Positions 60,331 to 61,718 of a stretch of DNA of 64,000 bases are shown one piece after another; the stretch's first letter is position 1; each line of letters opens with the position of its first letter. The stretch comes from Rhodobacterales bacterium (GTDB lineage: Bacteria > Pseudomonadota > Alphaproteobacteria > Rhodobacterales > Rhodobacteraceae): contig PDRW01000042.1 of assembly GCA_002746935.1 (NCBI GenBank), positions 1 to 64,000 on the forward strand, given 5' to 3'. Both the position numbers and the translations under genes were made by a program. The notes beneath the pieces were generated by a model. That model did not search any database. It saw only the letters and a program-made list of their open reading frames with translations, and was not told the origin of the DNA.

Positions 60331-61718
60331 ATGCTCGACCATCTCGCCTACGCCCCCCCCAAACCCACCCGGATCGCCGGGGCGAAGGAGGATTGGGAAC
60401 TGGTGATCGGCATGGAGGTTCATGCCCAGGTTACCTCGAAGGCCAAGCTGTTCTCCGGCGCCTCGACCCGGTTCGGCGCCGAGCCCAATTCCAATGTCGC
60501 CTTCGTCGATTCGGCGATGCCGGGCATGTTGCCGGTGATCAACGAATATTGCGTCGAACAGGCGGTGCGCACCGGGCTGGGGCTGAAGGCGGTGATCAAC
60601 CTCACCTCCGCCTTCGACCGCAAGAACTACTTCTACCCCGACCTGCCGCAGGGCTATCAGATCAGCCAGCTCTACCACCCGATCGTCGGCGAGGGCGAAG
60701 TGATCGTCCGCTGATGGAAATCGTCTCCCGCCCCGACATCCGCAGCCCCGAAGAGGCCGCCGCCTACATGCAGAAGCTGCGCCAGATCATGCGCTATCTC
60801 GGCACCTGCGACGGCAACATGCAGGAAGGCTCGATGCGGGCGGATGTGAACATTTCGGTCTGCCGCCCGGGCGATTACGAGCGCTACATGGAGACCCAGG
60901 ATTTCTCCCATCTCGGCACCCGCTGCGAGATCAAGAACATGAACTCCATGCGCTTCATCCAGGCGGCGATCGACGTCGAGGCCCGGCGCCAGATCGCCAT
61001 TCTGGAAGACGGCGGCACGGTCACCCAGGAAACCCGCCTCTACGATCCCGACCGCGGCGAGACCCGCTCGATGCGCTCGAAGGAAGAGGCCCACGATTAC
61101 CGCTACTTCCCCTGCCCGGACCTGTTGCCGCTGGAGATCGAACAGGCCTGGGTCGATGCCATCGCCGCCAGCCTGCCGGAGCTGCCGGACGAGAAGAAGG
61201 CGCGTTTTGTCAATGACTTCGGGCTGTCGGAATATGACGCCGGCGTGCTCACGGCCGATGTCGAGGCGGCGCGCTATTTCGAGGCCGTGGCCAGGGGCCG
61301 CGACGGCAAGCTCGCCGCCAACTGGGTGATCAACGAGCTGTTCGGGCGGCTCAAGAAGGACGATACCGGCATCGCCGAAAGCCCGGTCAGCCCGGAGCAG
61401 CTCGGCGCCATCATCGGGCTGATCTCGAAGGGCGACATCTCCGGCAAGATCGCCAAGGAGCTGTTCGAGATCGTCTATACCGAGGGCGGCGACCCGGCCG
61501 AAATCGTCGAGGCGCGCGGCATGAAACAGGTGACCGACACCGGCGCCATCGAGGCCGCGGTCGACAAGGTGATCGCGGAGAACCCGGCGCAGGTGGAGAA
61601 GGCGAAGCTCAACCCGAAGCTCGCGGGCTGGTTCGTCGGGCAGGTGATGAAGGCCACCGGCGGCAAGGCCAATCCGAAGGCGGTCAACGAGATCGTGGCG
61701 AAGAAGCTGGCGCTCTGA
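60331..61718 (+). pseudogene. gatB: Glutamyl/aspartyl-tRNA amidotransferase subunit B, disrupted
   Basis: N-terminal part 60331-60714 (127 aa: [14 protein letters not shown] ... [13 protein letters not shown]) ends at TGA, which overlaps ATG 60714 (TGATG). From there [26 protein letters not shown] to [11 protein letters not shown] (334 aa) is normal GatB in another frame. As I recall the family, about 40-45 residues between GEVIV and LMEIVS (including the DAGK and DLNRTG segments) are missing. GatB with GatA/C makes Gln-tRNA and Asn-tRNA, often essential here. Whether it is a real lesion, an assembly error or two coupled polypeptides is open. AAGGACA precedes 60331. Confidence 0.88.

Follow-up and report, generated by a model that had tools for sequence, protein, structure and literature searches.

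Is the gatB gene in this DNA really split in the organism, or was an internal block lost only from the sequence record? The window (the whole stretch of DNA analysed, 64,000 nucleotides) holds both ends of the gene in two reading frames, which meet at a TGATG stop-start. The question was addressed with family models, alignments with relatives and a survey of other genes in the same draft genome.

The interrupted gatB in the record

The features of gatB in the window were as follows.

60331..61718, + strand: gatB, interrupted; both gene ends present, middle block absent
60331..60714, + strand: gatB 5' piece; 126 GatB residues, 1 junction residue and TGA; TIGR00133 positions 2–109, GatB_N positions 1–103
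60708..60709, + strand: gatB junction; 127 bp of the relatives absent; blunt, 0-base slide against five relatives
60712..60716, + strand: TGATG in gatB; conserved Leu-Met codons, out of frame
60714..61718, + strand: gatB 3' piece; 334 residues; TIGR00133 positions 156–480

The gene was normal up to base 60708 and continued from 60709 in a different frame. The first frame started at ATG 60331 and ran for 127 codons to TGA at 60712–60714; the second started at ATG 60714–60716 and ran for 334 codons to the usual stop, ending at 61718. The NCBIfam model TIGR00133 was matched by the 5' piece at positions 2–109 and by the 3' piece at 156–480, and positions 110–155 were absent from the record. Pfam GatB_N (277 positions) was matched at 1–103 and 147–276, with 104–146 absent. 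Both the N-terminal catalytic part and the C-terminal GatB/YqeY domain were matched, and the record lacked an uninterrupted catalytic domain with the motif HLEQDAGKS. The solved GatB chains 3h0l_B, 4wj3_B and 2df4_B were covered nearly end to end by the intact GatB of a genome of the same family (G030). Both window pieces matched the GatB family closely and in order; the difference was the absence of 127 bp inside the catalytic domain.

The original prediction of a block missing from GatB, with the frame shifted at the junction, was borne out by the family models and the alignments with relatives. Its count of 127 and 334 normal residues held for the 334; of the 127 residues in the N-terminal piece, 126 belong to GatB and one to the junction. 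The 127-bp loss in the sequence record was confirmed.

Outside the gap, comparison with the same-genus genome G004 showed no further stop or frame shift in gatB. Counted by codon position (1/2/3), the 5' piece differed from G004 at 9/9/31 sites and the 3' piece at 29/22/88. This pattern indicates that selection for protein function acts on the remaining parts of gatB, and the gene looks used.

The draft genome comprised 2,807,716 bases in 94 contigs and was 83.9% complete; completeness and contig number point to a metagenome draft. Another gatB, glnS or asnS elsewhere in the genome had been proposed as a check. In this 83.9% complete draft, the only gatB above the cut-off was that of the window, and no glnS or asnS was found above it. 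The weak matches to glnS and asnS were probably GluRS and AspRS. Both gatC and gatA scored above the cut-off on contig C19. carB and leuS were each covered in one stretch, which counts against an assembly fault. rpoC gave no match in the draft; the same search was positive in 14 of 14 control genomes.

The lost block and the TGATG in relatives

A whole gatB was found in four of six same-genus genomes (G001, G004, G005, G006) and in G030; in the other two, G002 and G003, the gene was interrupted by contig ends. In all five whole genes, 127 additional bases separated the counterparts of window positions 60708 and 60709. The flanks of the gap showed 83–89% DNA identity to the four same-genus genes, so the gatB match was not due to chance. 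An automatic gap measure over 38 loci (some genomes twice), which left out loci with overlapping or partial alignments, gave 127 in 28 and 126 in 10. The expected 125–130 missing bases were thus right, the alignment check giving 127. Among 99 loci of relatives, gatB was in one frame by motif in 95, and two more had the block by alignment; the remaining two were a contig-end fragment and a gene with an in-frame stop. At locus L022, gatB was cut by a contig end. At L046, from another metagenome draft, gatB (about 2500–4008) was whole except for a single in-frame stop.

In G004 numbering, the gap covered codons 127–168 and one base of codon 169. At least 99% invariance was seen for 24 of the 43 lost residues (80 aligned rows). 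The idea that the loss hit the best-conserved region of gatB was rejected: the block was only moderately conserved, and windows of the gene that were more conserved made up 15% (4 genus rows) or 34% (80 rows). This conservation test dropped 19 of 98 loci, L022 and L046 as broken and 17 through too narrow a start-motif pattern.

The lost block contains the active-site motif HLEQDAGKS, whose Glu corresponds in the alignment to S. aureus GatB E124. In yeast GatB, H36, E156 and E186 have been modelled as Mg2+ ligands (PMC4027206), and by its spacing yeast E156 is probably the same Glu. GatCAB is called essential in mycobacteria (PMC7541841). Two GatB pieces without the HLEQDAGKS block are not expected to function.

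The TGATG was found in 91 of 97 scorable rows of relatives (four rows being second copies from the same genomes), spanning the Leu-Met codons of LMEIV; the site read CTGATGG in 87 rows and TTGATGG in 4. Since the same letters occur in relatives with the whole gene, the TGATG is older than the loss. It reads as ordinary Leu-Met codons out of frame, not as an evolved stop-start. The RNA fold around the junction was no better than that of shuffled sequence (z +1.31). Only short repeats were found at the junction, none of them across the join.

That coupled translation yields a functional GatB in two pieces was therefore considered scarcely credible. The TGATG overlap it would use is present in the record, as had been predicted, but it is not particular to the split form, being found in 91 of the 97 rows with the gene unsplit. 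The pieces would also lack the Glu aligned to S. aureus E124, and no special RNA fold accompanies the overlap. A biological split at the stop-start, which the prediction had raised as a possibility, is unsupported, because relatives' whole genes carry the TGATG and the pieces lack the active-site block.

Internal losses in other genes of the draft

In a survey, 38 pieces of the draft, together 758,740 bp or 27% of it, were set against 1.32 Mb of the same-genus genome G001. Among the 1061 ORFs of G001, 94 passed the identity limit, and these included shadow frames. Losses of at least 60 nt appeared in five ORFs: gatB, uvrB, ettA, cobN and an ORF on C30 that we take to be ftsY-like. The last, with a 276-nt difference, was not counted since it fell in an acidic variable stretch. 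The other losses were located as follows.

ettA, 21127..22644, + strand: same contig as gatB; 138 bp absent at 21234/21235; TIGR03719 positions 2–33 and 80–552
uvrB, contig C41 (L186): 237 bp absent at the join at 14694; model positions 304–383
cobN, contig C40 (L166): 135 bp absent at the join at 2585; block with HMGKHGNLEWLPGK

All three losses were clean and internal, with well-matched flanks, and each removed a conserved motif. The ettA loss, detected through a shadow frame, took the first Walker A block. No second uvrB match above the cut-off was found in the draft. A second cobN on C55 (L259) was full length and diverged, with 70–75% DNA identity to the C40 copy. The C40 case is therefore weaker, as this copy may be a redundant gene that is truly decaying. 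The frame was kept in three of the four losses, which would occur by chance about one time in nine.

Several other candidates were rejected. The frame change in metF (window 14311–15174) came from an over-long or shadow ORF in the relative, as did those in a gene on C30, presumably hisH-like, and in an ORF on C36. A candidate on C20, which we take to be purD, was an over-long ORF.

The draft's own ORFs were compared with G001 as a control; 76 were used, giving only two gaps (69 and 72 nt), both with poorly matched flanks. The other controls were small. There were 0 losses in 13 for G001 against G004, G005, G006 and G030, 0 in 19 for these four against G001, and 0 in 2 for the draft's own ORFs against the four. 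With ORFs of the four against the draft, 11 were used and 4 events were found, all of them gatB. Within the part of the draft surveyed and these small controls, like losses occurred in unrelated genes of the draft and were absent in the relatives.

Origin of the loss

The 127-bp loss is very probably absent from the organism and is best read as an unmarked gap introduced when the sequence was assembled or processed afterwards. This reading, which the original prediction had offered as an alternative, gains favour from uvrB, ettA and cobN of the same draft, whose losses are equally clean and of the same kind. The organism would carry an ordinary, whole gatB, of which the assembly, the scaffolding or a subsequent processing step would have dropped 127 bp and joined the flanks with no sign of a gap. 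The losses in uvrB and ettA would have the same cause, as probably would that in one cobN copy. One guess, with somewhat less than an even chance if the loss is an artefact, is that scaffold gaps (N runs) were closed up unfilled, which would leave blunt joins of arbitrary length. All four joins had a 0-base slide against a relative, so no microhomology was seen at them when the relative's bases stood in for those missing from the draft. No N bases were found in the 38 draft pieces (758,740 bp).

The size of the gatB loss equals 127, a usual largest k in SPAdes runs, and the assembler might have dropped exactly one k-mer length. The contig ends (56 ends, 29 contigs) spoke against this. Identical shared ends measured 80, 80, 94, 99 and 99 bp; near-identical ones measured 99 (one mismatch), 100, 108, 141 and 197 bp, so that shared ends at 97–100% identity spanned 80–197 bp. 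Longer overlaps had 91–96% identity, and none among the 56 ends was 127 bp. Contig-end overlaps reflect the largest k, being about the k-mer size (PMC7111523). The overlaps thus point to k near 99 and the idea fails; the other losses, of 135, 138 and 237 bp, do not fit 127 either. Its probability is negligible. Contig ends such as those of C6, C12, C16, C19, C28, C36 and C37 stopped inside shared repeats, with overlaps of 80–143 bp; we presume from their look that these repeats are transposase gene ends.

A real recent deletion in the strain or in part of its population, with gatB a pseudogene and its function supplied from the missing part of the draft, is unlikely. In its favour, the draft is 83.9% complete and gave no match even to rpoC, so that its missing part could also hold a second gatB, glnS or asnS; in addition, three of the four losses leave the frame intact. 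This is outweighed by the same kind of loss in three other genes, by the lack of decay in the rest of gatB, and by the relatives' loci, 95 of 99 with gatB in one frame and two more with the block. Less likely still is a Rhodobacteraceae lineage with real blunt motif losses in gatB, uvrB and ettA, its tRNA amidation rescued from outside the draft.

The favoured artefact has a partial parallel. Local assembly errors in metagenome drafts spoil protein genes (PMC7111523). The drafts described there resemble this one in their incomplete or incorrect protein genes and in contig ends that share overlaps close to the k-mer length. Blunt, unmarked losses of 127–237 bp, as here, are not described in the available part of that paper.

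A real loss would mean that an essential translation gene is broken with no visible substitute. The split gatB is most likely not a real feature of the organism. As an artefact, it is a caution that a draft without marked gaps in the parts seen can miss more than 100 bp inside conserved genes. Four of the 94 compared ORFs were affected, and sites of this kind can be mistaken for pseudogenes, for split genes or for novel variants of a protein.
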